A stretch of DNA of 64,000 nucleotides from Myxococcaceae bacterium (GTDB lineage Bacteria; Myxococcota; Myxococcia; Myxococcales; Myxococcaceae): assembly GCA_016793095.1 (NCBI GenBank), contig JAEUJQ010000016.1, positions 1 to 64,000 on the forward strand, given 5' to 3'. Shown here piece after piece: positions 17,723 through 24,620 of this stretch (its first letter is position 1; each line of letters starts with the position of its first letter). The notes below the pieces were generated by a model that did not search any database, was not told the DNA's origin, and saw nothing but the letters and a program-made list of their open reading frames with translations. The position numbers and the translations under genes were made by a program.

Positions 17723-19366
17723 TCAGCGCCAGGCGCAGCCGGTGCGGCCATCGGCCGTCGAGACCCACCCCAGCGCGGGCCGGCACACGCAGGTCGTGTA
17801 GCTCTGCGTGAGCACCACCGCGCCGTCGAACGCGTCGGCGCACGTGTTCGGAGCAGCGCCGTAGCGCTTGAGCCGTAGCGCGCCGTTGATGTCCAGCCCC
17901 GTCCACTCCACGTTGTTCGGCCAGGTCGCGTTCGGGCCCTGCGACACCTGATTCCCGATCACCGACAGGAAGCCGTTCTCGCCGTTGCGCTGCAGCGTGT
18001 AGTGGAAGTTCTCCTGGCCCAGCCTCAGGAGCGGCTGCCCGGGCTGCGTCGGGGCGATGAGCTCGAGGAGTGGGCCAGGCAGTTGCTGACCTCGCACCGA
18101 CACCTGCTGCGCTTCGACTCCCCGTTCGTCGAGCCGCTGCGGTCGCGTCACCAGGCCGCGAAAGTCGCCGCCGAGCTCGCCGTTGAAGGGGTTCACCCAC
18201 CGGTCGCTCACCGAGACGACGTGGCTGAAGCTGCCCTCACCGACGAACTCGACCCTCCGACGGCCTGGCGTCCCGTCTGCGCCGGGCGTGCTGCGGCCCG
18301 GGAAGCTCGACCCGACGCTGTTGAACCAGACGGTGCCTTCGACCAACACGCCCTCCCCGAGGAACGCGTGCTCGAGCAGCAGGCGCGGCTGGTGCGGTGT
18401 CGCCGATGGGAGCACGCGAATGGCCAGCGTCGTCCCTTCGGCGTGCAGCTCGGTGACCCGCATGCTGGTGAAGGCCGCGAGCTCGAGGCATGGGCCCGTC
18501 ACGGCGCGCCCAGCGACGGTTTGCCCTTCGCAGTTGAGCTGCAGGAGGTGGAGGTTGGCGCCCTCGACGCGCACGCCCACCTGGTCCTGGCCCTGGAAGA
18601 CGGTGAGGTTGTGCACGTTCCAGTTCGACATGTTCCACGAGCGGGCGTGCAGACCGACGGTGTTGTTCTCGAGGACGACCTGGTCGAGCTGCACCCCGTC
18701 GAGCATCGGGTCGCGGGCGCGGTCTTCGAGGCCAGAGCTGGCAGAGATGCCCATGGTGAAGCCGGCGATGCGCACGTTCTCGACCGTCAGGTGCCGCACC
18801 CACTCGTGCGCTGGCAGGTCGCCGGTGACGAGCAGGCCCACCGTGGCGCTGTCCCGGGCGATGGGCTCACGAATGGGCCAGTTCTCGACGCCTGGCCCGA
18901 GGTTGCGGAGCTCGAGATCTCTGATGACGACGTCAGCGAGCGCCACTCCACGCAGGCGCAGCAGGGGACGGCCACGGGTGATCAGCCGCACCTGACAGAA
19001 GCCTGCCTGGGTCGAGTTCACCCCGATGAGCTGAACGCCGGCGGGCACGTCGAGGGTGTCGCTGATGTTGTAGTGGCCACCAGGCACGCGCACGATGCCC
19101 CCGCCGTTCGAGGCCCCACCGCCCCCCGGCGCGAACCACCGGAGCGCGCACTTGAACGCCGCGGTGTCGTCCGTCTGGCTGTCGCCCTTCGCGCCGAAGT
19201 CGGCGACGGACACCTCGCCTCGCGGACCGGCGCCAGTGTACCGACAGCCGGTGCCTCCGACAGGGGCGGCATCGAGCGCCGCCCCGGTGCTCGACGTGTG
19301 ATCGGGGGGCACGTTTCCGCATGCGACAAGCACACAACTGACGAGGGCAAGGGAGTGAGTGGTCAT
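17723..19366 (-). CDS. Pectate-lyase-3-like right-handed beta-helix lipoprotein
   Basis: 547 residues. The leader MTTHSLALVSCVLVACGN has the lipobox Cys at residue 16. Residues about 50-80 carry the family entry motif VSVADFGAKGDSQTDDTAAF, which opens pectate-lyase-3/polygalacturonase-like beta-helices, followed by GGGIVRVPGGHYNISDTLDVPAGVQLIGV. Many short strands with Asn/Val ladders follow, ending in a Cys-rich segment (TCVCRPALGW ... GCAWR). Some relatives cleave or bind polysaccharides, others are phage or surface spikes. It is first in an operon with the glycosidase-like lipoprotein and diverges from the sigma-factor gene. Confidence 0.82.
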   Translation of the reverse strand: MTTHSLALVSCVLVACGNVPPDHTSSTGAALDAAPVGGTGCRYTGAGPRGEVSVADFGAKGDSQTDDTAAFKCALRWFAPGGGGASNGGGIVRVPGGHYNISDTLDVPAGVQLIGVNSTQAGFCQVRLITRGRPLLRLRGVALADVVIRDLELRNLGPGVENWPIREPIARDSATVGLLVTGDLPAHEWVRHLTVENVRIAGFTMGISASSGLEDRARDPMLDGVQLDQVVLENNTVGLHARSWNMSNWNVHNLTVFQGQDQVGVRVEGANLHLLQLNCEGQTVAGRAVTGPCLELAAFTSMRVTELHAEGTTLAIRVLPSATPHQPRLLLEHAFLGEGVLVEGTVWFNSVGSSFPGRSTPGADGTPGRRRVEFVGEGSFSHVVSVSDRWVNPFNGELGGDFRGLVTRPQRLDERGVEAQQVSVRGQQLPGPLLELIAPTQPGQPLLRLGQENFHYTLQRNGENGFLSVIGNQVSQGPNATWPNNVEWTGLDINGALRLKRYGAAPNTCADAFDGAVVLTQSYTTCVCRPALGWVSTADGRTGCAWR

Positions 19367-19470
19367 GCGGGGAGGACGAGCGGTCGAGTCGAACCGTGCA
19401 CACCCGGGCGTCCAGGGAATCCACCGGGTTCCGTCGGTCGCGATCGGACCTGGAGCGAAGAGGCGGCGAG

Positions 19471-20292
19471 GTGCTGGCAGCCGGCTCGTGTTCGGGCCAA
19501 TCTCGCGCCGTGTCCTCGACGGTCTCGCGCGCAGTCACGGCGTTCCCTGCGCTGGCTTCCCGGCGGGCGGACTTCGAGCGGTGGCTCGCCTCGGTGGCCC
19601 CGCGCTCCTCCTGGGGCGAGCTCAACCTCGACGATCTGGCCCTCGCGTGGCTCGCGTCGAAGCACGAGCCATCGGCTGTCAACGAGCTCGATCGTCGGCT
19701 CCGGAGCGTCGCCCGCGCGCGGCTGCGGAACGACTCCGGGACCCTCGAAGAGGTCCTTCAGCGGGCGCGCGAGCGACTCCTGGTGGGCGATCGGCCCCGC
19801 CTGCTCGCCTATCGAGGGCGCGGTTCGCTCGTGCAGTACCTGAAGGCGGTCGTCGCCACGGTCGCCATCGATCTGTCCCGCGGAGCCCACACTCGCGAAG
19901 AGGGCGCAGACAACCAGACGTTCCTCAACGCCGCGGCAGAAGAAGCTGGCGTGGACGCGCGCCTCGCCCACGCGTCGTGGCGGAAACACTTCACCCAGGC
20001 CTTCACCGAAGCGCTGGCCACGCTCGAGACCGAGGAGCGCACCTGGCTGCGCATGCGGTTCGTGGACGGCCTCTCGACGGACGCTGTCGGCGCCGCCTTC
20101 GGTGTCCATCGCACCACCGCGATGCGCCGACTCGAGAAGGCTCAGGCGGCGTTGTTGAGCGAGACGCGTCGTCGCCTGGCACGGCAGATGAAGCTCGACG
20201 CTCGCGAAGTGGACAGCCTCGTCCGCGGAATGCGGCTGTCTCTGGCAGAGAACCTCTCGCGCATTCTGCCGAGGCTGCCCGTCAGCTCGTGA
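19471..20292 (+). CDS. ECF-like RNA polymerase sigma factor
   Basis: About 273 residues. The GTG at 19471 follows GAAGAGG by seven bases; a GTG at 19510 is an alternative, and the true start is uncertain. A sigma region 2-like helix is seen in LAYRGRGSLVQYLKAVVATVAIDLSR, and region 4 in LETEERTWLRMRFVDGLSTDAVGAAFGVHRTTAMRRLEKAQ, a helix-turn-helix that would contact the -35 box. The tail REVDSLVRGMRLSLAENLSRIL is an added helical segment of the kind seen in myxobacterial sigma factors of this type. It converges on the gene pair ending at 20282 with an 11-base overlap, and that pair includes a Ser/Thr kinase with an anti-sigma-like zinc finger. Confidence 0.83.
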   Translation: MLAAGSCSGQSRAVSSTVSRAVTAFPALASRRADFERWLASVAPRSSWGELNLDDLALAWLASKHEPSAVNELDRRLRSVARARLRNDSGTLEEVLQRARERLLVGDRPRLLAYRGRGSLVQYLKAVVATVAIDLSRGAHTREEGADNQTFLNAAAEEAGVDARLAHASWRKHFTQAFTEALATLETEERTWLRMRFVDGLSTDAVGAAFGVHRTTAMRRLEKAQAALLSETRRRLARQMKLDAREVDSLVRGMRLSLAENLSRILPRLPVSS

Positions 20293-21046
20293 AGAGCCAC
20301 GCCAGCGCGCCCGCCACCAGCGCAGCCGCCGCCGCGCCTGCGACGAGCGCGATGGTGTAGTCGCGGTTCGCGCGCACCGCGAGCGCTTCGACCTCGGGTC
20401 GTGGCACGAGACTCGGGTTCGGAGTCGCCTCCACGCGGACTCGCCCATCGGTCGCGAACCCCAGGAAGATGCCCGAGGTGACTGCCGTTGCTCCGGCTCC
20501 GCTCAACAGGATCCAGGCCGGGGCCCGGGAACGCGTGACTCGAACTGGCGGAGGGGGAGGGGTCTCGGTCAAGGGGACCGACACCACCACGACCGGCGGG
20601 GCGCGCTCGGGTTCGCGGACGGGCGCGTCGACGAGCGGGGCCGAGGGCAGGGCGTCCTTGACCCGCTGCGCGAAGGCGTGCACCTGGCGCCGGTCTTCTT
20701 CCCTCAGCCGCTCAGCGACCGAGAACGTCAACTGGGCCACCGAAGCTCCGTCGTCAGGCCGGAGCGCCTCGATGTCGAGGGTGGTCTGCTTCCGTCGCGG
20801 CGCAATCGTCACGCCCACCAGGACAGCGAGCTTCTCCGTCCGGGCAACGCCGATCAGACACTCGCGCGCCCCGGCACACGAGGTCGTCAGCCGGCGAACT
20901 GGCAAGCCCACGGCGACGAGCTCCTGCTCGACCACGTCGAGGTAGACTGCGGGTGGCGTTCCCGTCTTGCCCAGCTGCGCCGACAAGGTCAGGCCAACGG
21001 AGGGCGCAGTCGCCACGGCCAGCAGGGTGACCCAGGAGAGCATCAT
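20282..21046 (-). CDS. Membrane protein of unknown function beside the kinase
   Basis: 254 residues. The start ATG at 21046 overlaps the kinase stop by four bases (ATGA), implying translational coupling. A signal peptide (MMLSWVTLLAVATAPSVG) is followed by a periplasmic domain with a Cys pair (TTSCAGARECLIG) that could bond, a Pro-rich linker (residues about 145-170) and two hydrophobic segments near the C-terminus (PAWILLSGAGATAVTSGIFLG and IALVAGAAAAALVAGALAWLF). The layout, with a sensing domain and membrane helices, suits an input component for the kinase, but this is inference. Its last 11 bases overlap the sigma-factor gene. Confidence 0.8.
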   Translation of the reverse strand: MMLSWVTLLAVATAPSVGLTLSAQLGKTGTPPAVYLDVVEQELVAVGLPVRRLTTSCAGARECLIGVARTEKLAVLVGVTIAPRRKQTTLDIEALRPDDGASVAQLTFSVAERLREEDRRQVHAFAQRVKDALPSAPLVDAPVREPERAPPVVVVSVPLTETPPPPPVRVTRSRAPAWILLSGAGATAVTSGIFLGFATDGRVRVEATPNPSLVPRPEVEALAVRANRDYTIALVAGAAAAALVAGALAWLFTS

Positions 21047-22983
21047 GGTGTCCGGTAGTTCTCCATGATCTCGTCGAGCTCACGGCCGATCGCGCGAGCG
21101 TCACCACCCTGCGTCAGCCTCGCCTCGATCCGATCCAGGTCCAGGTTCATCATTCGCCTCGCAGGCGCAGAGGTGAGCTGGGCCGCGGTCGCGCGGGCCT
21201 TTGCGAGGCGTCGCCGAAGGGCTGCGCCGGTCTGCTCTGGACGCGGCGTCGGGGGCGCTGTGGCCATGGCGCCCGGCTCCGTCGGCGCCCTGGGCTCGTG
21301 CGATTCCGGAGGGCGTTGCTGCTCGTTCGTCGGCGCTCGTGCGGTACCCTCGTTCGTCGGTGGCGGCGTGACTGGTTCCAGAGCTGCGGCCGTCGGCGCT
21401 CCGGCGGTCGCGACCAGGGGCGGCTGTGCCGTCGGGGCGATGGGGCCGGCCTGGTGCCCGTGGCCCCCCGCCGCCGGGTCGAGCCGCCGCTGGGCCGCCA
21501 GGCGCCACGCCACAATCGCTCCGCCCACGAGCGAGACCACGGCAAGCGCGAGCACGAGGCTCCGCCGGGAGCTCGATGCGGGAGCCGACGCCGGTTCCTC
21601 ACGCTTCATCCGGGGACGGTTGACGGCGCGAGTCTCCTTCGCGTCGGGGTTCGGGGCCTCGCTCACCACTTCGGGAACAGACGCCGGTTCCCCGGCCTTC
21701 GCCGGGGACCGCTTGACGACGCGGGTCGGCCTGGCGTCCGGGTTCGGGGCCTCGCTGGCCACTTCGGAGACCGGCGCTGGAGCCGTCTGTGGCGGCTGAA
21801 CAGGAGCGGATGAGGGAGCTGGTGGCACGTCGCCCGTCGTCAGCGTTGGGATGATCGAGCGGTACTCACGTGGGACCACGTCCTCGAGCGCAACCAGCGG
21901 GGCCGGTGAGGTGATGGTCTGCTTGCCTTCGAGGGCGCGGCGGATTCGAGCGACCTCCCGCTGAACGTCGAGGGCGGACGAGGGCCGGGACTCAGGCCGT
22001 TTCTCCAACATGCGCTCGACGAGCCTGACGAGGTCGTCGGGGCAGTCCGGCGCCAGGCGGCGGAGCGACGGGAGCGGCTCTTCGAGGTGCATCATCATCA
22101 GGTCGACGGAGCTCCTGGCCTGGAACGGCTCCTGACCCGTGAGCAACACCCAGGCGACGACCCCCATCGCATACAGGTCCGTCGCGGGTGTCACCCTCTG
22201 GGAGCGGATCTGCTCCGGCGCCATGTAGCCCGGGGTGCCCATGACGACGTTGGGAGAGGTCGATGACGATGCTCCCAACTGCTTGGCGAGGCCGAAGTCG
22301 AGGACCGTGACGTGCCAGGTGTGGTTGGCGAGTGTGGTGACGAAGATGTTCGGCGGCTTGAGATCACGGTGCACGACGCCCGCAGCGTGCGCCGCGCTCA
22401 GCGCCGCCATCGTCTGATCGAGAACCGTCAGGACCTCTGCCGGCTTGAGCTTGCCCCGCTCGAGCAGCATCGCGTCGAGTGACTTGCCGTTGAGCAGCTC
22501 CATGACGAAGTACTGGCGACCGTCAGGGAGGCGACCGAAGCTGAAGATGTCGATGATGTTCGGGTGGTGAATCGCGTTGACGGCGCGTGCCTCCGTGAGG
22601 AGCCGGTGCATCGTCTCCGTGTTCTCGGCCACGTCGGGGAGCAGCACCTTGATGGCGACCTTCTTGCCGATGACCGGCTGCACGCCGCGGTAGACCGCGC
22701 CCATGCCCCCGCGCGAGAGCGCCTGCTCCACTCGGTACTCGCCGAGCGGCTGCCCGATCAGCGGGTCCGACAGCTTCGTCCGGCCGGCGTCGTCCGAGTG
22801 CATCGACGCCAGCACCTGGCGGCACCGGGAGCACATGTCGAGATGCTCGACCACGCCGCTCCGACGTCCAGGGTCGAGCAGGTTGTTCGAGAACTCGAGG
22901 AGCTCAGACTCGTCGAGGTGGTCCTCCCTCAGGGTTGGGAGCTTCGCAGTGATTGCGCGATCGTTCCGAGTCCCGGGCGACAT
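21043..22983 (-). CDS. Ser/Thr protein kinase with N-terminal anti-sigma-like zinc finger
   Basis: 646 residues. Residues 24-60 resemble a zinc-binding anti-sigma (zf-HC2/ZAS) helix pair with His47, Cys51 and Cys54 in HLDMCSRC. A complete Hanks-type kinase domain follows at about 82-345: glycine loop SRGGMGAVYRG, Lys112 in VAIKVL, HRDLKPPN at 205-212 (Asp207 catalytic), DFG at 229-231, and GTPGYMAPEQ. The C-terminal 300 residues are Pro/Ala/Glu-rich with internal repeats (SEAPNPDA... twice) and one membrane helix near residue 475 (SLVLALAVVSLVGGAIVAW). An ECF-like sigma gene lies just downstream, convergent. A fused kinase/anti-sigma architecture is an attractive but unproven reading. Confidence 0.92.
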   Translation of the reverse strand: MSPGTRNDRAITAKLPTLREDHLDESELLEFSNNLLDPGRRSGVVEHLDMCSRCRQVLASMHSDDAGRTKLSDPLIGQPLGEYRVEQALSRGGMGAVYRGVQPVIGKKVAIKVLLPDVAENTETMHRLLTEARAVNAIHHPNIIDIFSFGRLPDGRQYFVMELLNGKSLDAMLLERGKLKPAEVLTVLDQTMAALSAAHAAGVVHRDLKPPNIFVTTLANHTWHVTVLDFGLAKQLGASSSTSPNVVMGTPGYMAPEQIRSQRVTPATDLYAMGVVAWVLLTGQEPFQARSSVDLMMMHLEEPLPSLRRLAPDCPDDLVRLVERMLEKRPESRPSSALDVQREVARIRRALEGKQTITSPAPLVALEDVVPREYRSIIPTLTTGDVPPAPSSAPVQPPQTAPAPVSEVASEAPNPDARPTRVVKRSPAKAGEPASVPEVVSEAPNPDAKETRAVNRPRMKREEPASAPASSSRRSLVLALAVVSLVGGAIVAWRLAAQRRLDPAAGGHGHQAGPIAPTAQPPLVATAGAPTAAALEPVTPPPTNEGTARAPTNEQQRPPESHEPRAPTEPGAMATAPPTPRPEQTGAALRRRLAKARATAAQLTSAPARRMMNLDLDRIEARLTQGGDARAIGRELDEIMENYRTP

Positions 22984-23025
22984 CCGGCCTCAGCAAAGCA
23001 CAGTTTCCCGGTCGGTCGCCGCGAG

Positions 23026-23457
23026 TCAGTACCAGTCGTGGCGCTCGAAGTCCGTCGCCCACTCGATGACGATCGGCCGAGGTCGATGGTGGACGCTGGG
23101 CACCAACCTGCCCGCCGCTTCGAGCACGCCATTCGCTCCGAAGAGGAGGACGAGGCGCTGGAGACGGGCGACGACGACCGGCCAGCGCCGCGGCACACCG
23201 CGCGCGTCGGCGACTTCGAGCCCGAGCACCACCGCGCCCCCCGGCTCTCGACGGTCGTGAACCCGAACAGCGCAGCGCACGAGCGGTGGCAGGCTCTTCA
23301 ACACGCTGCGGAGGTCGGTGAGGCCGGCGCAGGGACCACGCCGGAACGAGTCCTCGACCGCGCGCTGCGCATCAGCGCGAACGTCACGCGAGCGACGGTC
23401 AGGACGCGGTGGACTGCCGGGTGCGAAGCAAGGCAAGGGCGTCAAGGAGAGAGGCAC
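23026..23457 (-). CDS. Possible small protein upstream of the kinase
   Basis: Up to 143 residues; the true start is uncertain, because the first 30 codons (Pro/Arg-rich) look random. The C-terminal two thirds have a plausible alpha/beta sequence (LPPLVRCAVRVHD, GGAVVLGLEVADARG, WPVVVARLQRLVLLFG, VIEWATDFERHDWY) with acceptable codon bias. It ends 42 bases before the kinase gene on the same strand and could be the first gene of that operon. No family recognised. Confidence 0.45.
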   Translation of the reverse strand: MPLSLTPLPCFAPGSPPRPDRRSRDVRADAQRAVEDSFRRGPCAGLTDLRSVLKSLPPLVRCAVRVHDRREPGGAVVLGLEVADARGVPRRWPVVVARLQRLVLLFGANGVLEAAGRLVPSVHHRPRPIVIEWATDFERHDWY

Positions 23458-23537: not shown

Positions 23538-24620
23538 GTGAAGAACGGGTGGGTGCTGATCCTGGCGGCGGGTGTGCTGCCGCTCTCTCCAGGGTGCCAG
23601 TGTGTCCGCGCGCCCGACGTGACGTATCCCTGTGGCACCTCGGCAGACTGCCTCACGAGCGAGCAATGCGTGGCTGGCCTCTGCACGACTGACAAGGCTG
23701 ATGCAGGGGACGCAGGGGGCCTGGACGCCGGGAGCGATGCCGGGGCTCCGGATGCGGGCGGAGATGCGGGGACCTCGGACGCCGGGAGCGATGCGGGGGC
23801 GCTCGACGCCGGGAGCGATGGGGGGGCTCTGGACGCCGGGGGCGATGCGGGGGCGCTCGACGCCGGGAGCGATGCGGGTGCTCTGGACGGCGGGCTCGAC
23901 GGCGGGCTCACCGACGGGGGACAGCCGAAGGAGAACTGCGCCAATCAGATGGACGACGACGGCGATGGAGACGTTGACTGCGGCGACCGCGACTGCATGC
24001 AGCAGCCCTGTCGGCTCCGGGCCCATGCGTGCGATGCCGAGGAAGTCTGTCTGGGGGTCGTCTGTCCACCAGATGGGCTCGAGGCGTCGGGGACGCGCTG
24101 TGATGACGGGAACCGGTGCACGGCCAGCGATCAGTGTGTGGCCGACGGTGGCTGCGAGGGCGTTCGCGGGATCCCTCTCTATCGCTGCACCCAGCCGACG
24201 ATCGAGATCCTCTCACGAGGCAGCTGTCCGGTCGGCCTCGACTTCTGCGGGCCGATGAACCCGCTTCAGACGCTGATTGCCCGGGAAGTCCCCGACGCCG
24301 GCGCCGTGAGGTTGCAGGTCTCGTCTCCCGGGGCGATGGACGGCGGCTGTCTCGAGGTCCTGCCCGACGGAGGCGTCGCGCTCACTGCGGCGGTCTGCGC
24401 CGACTGGGTGCTGGGAGCCGGGGTTCGGGCCGGAATGTGCGGCACGAATACGATCGAGCTGGAGGTCAGCCCCGTGTTCTTCCCGGGCTCGCTCCCGCTG
24501 CACCAGTTCCGCTTGCCAGATGCGGGCGGCCCGCTTCACCTGTTCAGCACGAGCCCGGTTGGCCCCCCTCTGTCTCAACCGGACCCGCAGGATCCGCTCT
24601 TCTTCGTGTGCCCGCCCTGA
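23538..24620 (+). CDS. DAG-repeat, Cys-rich lipoprotein
   Basis: 360 residues from the GTG at 23538; an ATG at 23527 is closed by a stop within five codons. The leader VKNGWVLILAAGVLPLSPGC ends at a lipobox-like Cys, followed by a Cys-rich head (CGTSADCLTSEQCVAGLC) of the same type as in the lipoproteins at 46014 and 62040. Residues about 54-128 are a low-complexity stalk of DAGSDAGALDAG units. The C-terminal domain has more Cys pairs and a DDDGDGDVDCGDRDC segment typical of Ca-binding or thrombospondin-type Asp-rich motifs. Predicted to sit on the outside or in the periplasm. Function unknown. Confidence 0.8.
   Translation: MKNGWVLILAAGVLPLSPGCQCVRAPDVTYPCGTSADCLTSEQCVAGLCTTDKADAGDAGGLDAGSDAGAPDAGGDAGTSDAGSDAGALDAGSDGGALDAGGDAGALDAGSDAGALDGGLDGGLTDGGQPKENCANQMDDDGDGDVDCGDRDCMQQPCRLRAHACDAEEVCLGVVCPPDGLEASGTRCDDGNRCTASDQCVADGGCEGVRGIPLYRCTQPTIEILSRGSCPVGLDFCGPMNPLQTLIAREVPDAGAVRLQVSSPGAMDGGCLEVLPDGGVALTAAVCADWVLGAGVRAGMCGTNTIELEVSPVFFPGSLPLHQFRLPDAGGPLHLFSTSPVGPPLSQPDPQDPLFFVCPP
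23698..23916 (+). repeat. DAG/DAGS coding repeat
   Basis: Within the lipoprotein at 23538. Twelve-codon units of the kind Asp-Ala-Gly-Ser-Asp-Ala-Gly-Ala-Leu-Asp-Ala-Gly are repeated with near-identical DNA, for example GACGCCGGGAGCGATGCGGG several times. Slippage-prone DNA of this type can vary in copy number between strains. Confidence 0.85.

Follow-up and report, generated by a model that had tools for sequence, protein, structure and literature searches.

Within the stretch of DNA analysed here (the window, 64,000 nucleotides from a Myxococcaceae bacterium), an ECF-type sigma factor gene converges on genes that encode a membrane Ser/Thr kinase and a small membrane protein, and the N-terminus of the kinase is, as judged from its sequence and modelled structure, a real zinc anti-sigma (ASDI/ZAS) domain. 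Sequence analysis establishes four features: this ASDI domain, a kinase with its motifs intact, a transmembrane helix, and a persistent pairing with a sigma gene. Beyond these, we infer that the kinase binds and inhibits the sigma, that phosphorylation acts in the releasing direction, and that a signal sets it off. Our main reading, to which we give a probability of roughly 55%, is that the kinase is dedicated to regulating the adjoining ECF-type sigma, sequestering it through the ASDI and releasing it under the control of phosphorylation.

In other bacteria, a zinc-binding domain of this kind keeps ECF sigmas off. Hanks kinases number about a hundred or more in myxobacteria, few of their targets being known, and, to our knowledge, kinase control of ECF sigmas is understood in only a few cases. 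If the main reading is correct, sigma capture and phosphorylation, until now described as properties of separate proteins, would be united in one polypeptide. For each sigma of the gmx1 type, the family predicts a specific kinase with a small, defined binding domain, making assignments of kinase to target directly testable.

The sigma factor

The sigma gene (19471..20292, + strand) lies in a frame that is open from 19396 (19396..20292, +, 298 aa) and has in-frame GTG starts at 19396, 19471 and 19510; the start given in the initial annotation, 19471, is one of these three and is plausible. The protein has the layout of the ECF fold, regions 2 and 4 with no region 3, followed by a conserved C-terminal helical tail. 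It matches TIGR02937 (sigma70-ECF) at 47.3 bits (cutoff 42.9), and its region 4 (19996..20142, +) matches Pfam PF08281 above the Pfam cutoffs. The predicted structure has two domains (pLDDT 88), and in a fold search with this model the first 16 matches are ECF sigmas; thus, the earlier description of the gene as ECF-like is borne out. The best named family is the myxobacterial TIGR03001 (Sig-70_gmx1), to nearly the whole profile of which the protein aligns, with a score of 151.3 bits against a curated cutoff of 154.6. Since it falls 3 bits below that cutoff, the protein is called gmx1-like. A paralogue in the same genome (C63:137920) scores 160.9 bits against the same profile. Named matches to the window sigma come from one Myxococcales and one Myxococcaceae MAG; the genome of the window is 8.8 Mb, and the relatives are likewise large myxobacterial genomes.

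Region 2.2 contains an acidic pair, Glu-Glu at positions 78-79 (19747..19752, +), then xxGln, which is the retained half of a DAED motif. Among 97 sigma relatives, position 78 is D/E in 79 and position 79 is E/D in all 97, and no conserved Ser/Thr was found in region 2.2. Downstream of region 4, the tail consists of two helices (about 20200..20274, +) that include Ser 234, conserved in 83 of the 97 relatives and a possible phosphosite or contact surface. About 100 bases separate the sigma gene from a divergently transcribed gene for a pectate-lyase-like beta-helix protein (17723-19366, - strand; PF12708), which is a candidate target of the sigma.

The kinase and its zinc anti-sigma domain

The kinase (21043..22983, - strand, 646 aa) begins with a class I zinc anti-sigma domain (residues 20-69; 22777..22926, -), whose ligands are His22, His47, Cys51 and Cys54. 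The last three form the His47-x3-Cys51-x2-Cys54 pattern of the initial annotation, present in the window kinase as HLDMCSRC. Pfam zf-HC2 scores 17.9 bits against the whole protein and 20.1 bits against the N-terminus alone, with a cutoff of 22.2; a scan of this single sequence at the Pfam cutoff would therefore miss the domain. The same model matches 72 of 72 aligned kinase N-termini. This alignment was chosen by Hx3Cx2C, so that His47, Cys51 and Cys54 are invariant in it by construction. The column of the fourth ligand, however, 25 residues before His47 at the start of helix 1, played no part in the selection of rows and is Cys in 58 and His in 14 of the 72. A profile of the 72 N-termini searched against the PDB recovers the anti-sigmas RslA (E 1.9e-7), DdvA (1.3e-5), ChrR (9e-5) and RsiW (2e-3).

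Residues 1-80 are modelled as a three-helix bundle (25-32, 38-50 and 52-69). The top four Foldseek matches to the domain model are ChrR/RsiW, with weak E values of 2.3-6.1 for a very small domain, and structural comparison of the model with ChrR/RsiW gives Z scores of 7.1 and 6.2. In known complexes, helix 4 of an ASDI binds sigma region 2 (PMC7406223). The 80-residue model is without a fourth helix, its end being modelled at low confidence, and some 30 residues (the median of 82 kinases) lie between the second Cys (Cys54) and the kinase domain, leaving little room for a helix 4. With this space so short, inhibition of sigma by this ASDI may be weaker or different.

The zinc domain is followed by a Hanks kinase domain (residues 83-336; 21976..22737, -) that matches PF00069 at 174 bits and contains VAIK, HRDLKPPN, DFG and APE. 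Among 82 sigma-paired kinases, 81 have the VAIK Lys, HRDxKxxN and DFG, and 71 have all four scanned motifs when APE is added; in most of those short of four, the APE pattern alone is absent. A transmembrane helix (residues 475-493; 21505..21561, -) separates the kinase domain from a C-terminal part beyond it, and a hydropathy scan places a single such helix after the kinase domain in 61 of the 82. Taken together, the PDB profile matches, the fourth ligand, the fold matches and the kinase motifs uphold the original proposal of an anti-sigma-like zinc finger fused to a full Hanks kinase. Loss of the Cys/His pattern in orthologues had been named as evidence that would count against it; the pattern is kept in orthologues. 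Two kinases that adjoin sigma genes elsewhere, at L185 (G004:C398) and L191 (G026:C286), have an ASDI-like N-terminus from which all zinc ligands have been lost. Many known ASDIs are likewise without zinc ligands (PMC7406223).

Neighbouring genes of the kinase operon

The next gene after the kinase encodes a small membrane protein (20282..21046, - strand) and is translationally coupled to it: its start overlaps the kinase stop by 4 bases, an overlap that is kept in three genomes. It had been described as a coupled two-helix membrane protein. The coupling stands, and the hydropathy scan detects only one strong transmembrane helix, at the C-terminus (234-252); an N-terminal signal-like segment and a second, weaker segment are seen by eye. 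The gene belongs to the module in three genomes only, one further match being weak, and it is rejected as a universal third component.

A 143-aa ORF (23026..23457, -) directly precedes the kinase gene on its strand and is possibly the first gene of the kinase operon. A 53% identical copy is present at the related locus L036, and none was found in L037. Lipoprotein-like proteins with DAG-rich repeats, which start with PCxxxADCL...CVAGxC, are encoded near the module both in the window (~23539-24620, +) and in L037 (551-1948, +).

Pairing of sigma and kinase in the Myxococcota

The co-occurrence of sigma and kinase that the initial annotation proposed to look for is found throughout the phylum. 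For 97 sampled gmx1-type sigma loci, drawn from 49 genomes, a pair was scored when a gene within 4 kb of the sigma gene encoded a kinase whose catalytic domain is preceded by Hx3Cx2C, and such a zinc-finger kinase is present at 82 loci in 42 genomes. The suggestion that sigma genes might never adjoin this kinase, which would have argued against a functional connection, is thus contradicted, and the pairing is a rule in myxobacteria rather than a local oddity. The motif is found at 82 of the 88 sampled loci that have any kinase within 4 kb. At nine of the 97, several of them near contig ends, the sequence examined shows no kinase up to 4 kb away. In the other six the kinase is without the motif: three have an N-terminus that falls outside the stretch or frame, two are ASDI-like and ligand-less, and in one no such domain is recognised. 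Sigmas without a zinc-finger kinase within the 4 kb examined include those at L046, L039, L049, L178, L189, L181 and L188:3322-4149.

Gene order varies among the 82 pairs (28 tandem before, 23 tandem after, 19 divergent and 12 convergent), and the sigma tree requires at least 20 changes of arrangement by parsimony, many of its inner branches being weak. The window sigma groups with its two nearest relatives and four others in a supported clade, in which all are convergent. Distances between sigmas correlate with those between kinases (r 0.56) and between zinc domains (0.44), and none of 1000 within-genome re-pairings matched the observed sigma/kinase correlation. Because linked genes are co-inherited, this correlation speaks for a stable partnership, not for contact.

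The pairing is also enriched within single genomes. Of at least 151 kinase matches in the genome of the window, 8 are zinc-finger (zf-HC2) kinases, and all five gmx1-level sigmas of this genome adjoin one of the 8 (Fisher, 9e-8). In a second genome (a single contig, complete), which has 4 zf-HC2 kinases among at least 154, all 4 flank gmx1 sigmas, of which there are five (Fisher, 4e-8). Since enrichment is seen in both genomes, the adjacency of sigma and zinc-finger kinase is above chance. Among the 30 best kinases of the window's genome the motif occurs in two, the window kinase and one orphan. Three zinc-finger kinases in this genome, at G000:C79:92711 (L136), G000:C74:71557 (L137) and G000:C2:84376 (L138), have no gmx1 sigma in the surrounding 15 kb or so; they may be orphans, or their sigma may be encoded at a distance. 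Elsewhere in the same genome, an ECF-like sigma frame (G000:C29:74571-75377, L127; E 5.5e-14 to the gmx1 profile) adjoins a kinase without a zinc finger in an 899-aa frame, possibly a classic ECF-STPK pair.

Proposed mechanism and alternatives

In a membrane anti-sigma factor, a transmembrane helix joins an ASDI to an outside part. Kinases of the window type have this same order, with a kinase domain inserted, and their position beside gmx1 sigmas suggests that one protein both captures the sigma and governs its release. In the mechanism that we propose, the N-terminal ASDI would bind sigma on the cytoplasmic face, away from RNA polymerase, and the one transmembrane helix would connect this cytoplasmic half with the outside C-terminal part, to which the operon in the window would supply the small membrane partner. 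A signal would then alter kinase activity, and phosphorylation of the ASDI or linker in cis, or else of the sigma while bound, would free the sigma to transcribe its regulon. There is precedent for such a switch in M. tuberculosis, where PknB phosphorylates ZAS anti-sigmas, freeing sigma (PMC8999054), and where RshA and SigH are kinase substrates (PMC6213207). By analogy with PknB acting in trans, the simplest reading would be that the ASDI sequesters the sigma and the kinase controls its release. Counting against this are the short linker, the three zinc-finger kinases of the window's genome that have no gmx1 sigma nearby, and the nine gmx1-type loci at which the examined sequence shows no kinase up to 4 kb away. 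Given the short linker, the kinase domain itself may touch sigma region 2, although this is speculation. In a stronger and more tentative version, this would be a widespread form of myxobacterial ECF control in which the anti-sigma is a membrane kinase, the kinase domain stands in for helix 4, and release comes in one step when the kinase phosphorylates either itself or the sigma that it holds.

The zinc domain could instead be a docking module only, so that a weak or neutral sigma is activated or inactivated by direct phosphorylation, without sequestration, as in the ECF43 pair EcfP-PknT. ECF-STPK pairs that are activated by phosphorylation are known (PMC8999054), helix 4 hardly fits within the linker, and the conserved Ser 234 of the sigma tail would offer a target. 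However, this type of domain is one used for sequestration, and the sigma is not built like EcfP, since it and its relatives keep the region 2.2 acidic residues and have no conserved Ser/Thr there. On this motif an EcfP-type switch in region 2.2 is rejected, and we consider docking without sequestration unlikely. Less probable still is a role for the zinc domain in kinase dimerisation or redox sensing, the sigma being a mere neighbour that acts elsewhere. The presence of zf-HC2 in proteins with no nearby gmx1 sigma, including the three kinases mentioned above, would fit such a role, but the pairing persists in every gene order and across families of the phylum, and it is strongly enriched over other kinases. 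Finally, the sigma gene (stop at 20290-20292) does overlap the 3' end of the membrane gene by 11 bases (20282-20292), as first noted, but mutual regulation of the two transcripts through this antisense overlap is highly improbable and is rejected as a regulatory device, because in the two closest relatives 17 and 40 bases separate these convergent genes and pairs elsewhere are mostly tandem or divergent, with the convergent order in a minority.

Relation to known systems

RslA, ChrR, RsiW and DdvA, which are class I zinc anti-sigmas, share with the window kinase the [C/H]...Hx3Cx2C ligands and the three-helix bundle, and their genes too lie next to that of an ECF-type sigma; a transmembrane helix is often present. 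Unlike these, the window protein has a Hanks kinase straight after the bundle, with little room for helix 4, and release would probably occur via phosphorylation instead of by proteolysis or redox alone. The ECF-STPK pairs EcfP-PknT (ECF43) and EcfK-PknS are similar in that an ECF-type sigma is encoded beside an intact Ser/Thr kinase. However, their kinases are not described as having an anti-sigma domain (PMC8999054). In addition, EcfP is without the acidic 2.2 motif, of which the window sigma keeps the pair, and its activity needs phosphorylation at the region 2.2 motif (PMC8999054). In M. tuberculosis, PknB phosphorylates a ZAS anti-sigma and thereby governs the release of its sigma (PMC8999054, PMC6213207), as proposed here for the window kinase; there, kinase and anti-sigma are separate proteins, whereas in the window they are one polypeptide beside one sigma.

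ECF/STPK neighbourhoods and zinc anti-sigmas are already known, and no report of an ASDI-kinase fusion or of TIGR03001 regulation was found in the open full-text literature searched; the 2021 ECF reclassification paper and the DdvA papers may mention it. The profile of the 72 N-termini also matches residues 7-42 of a 991-residue CHAT-domain protein (PDB 8rot), from which it appears that the same zinc domain may be fused to other effectors too.
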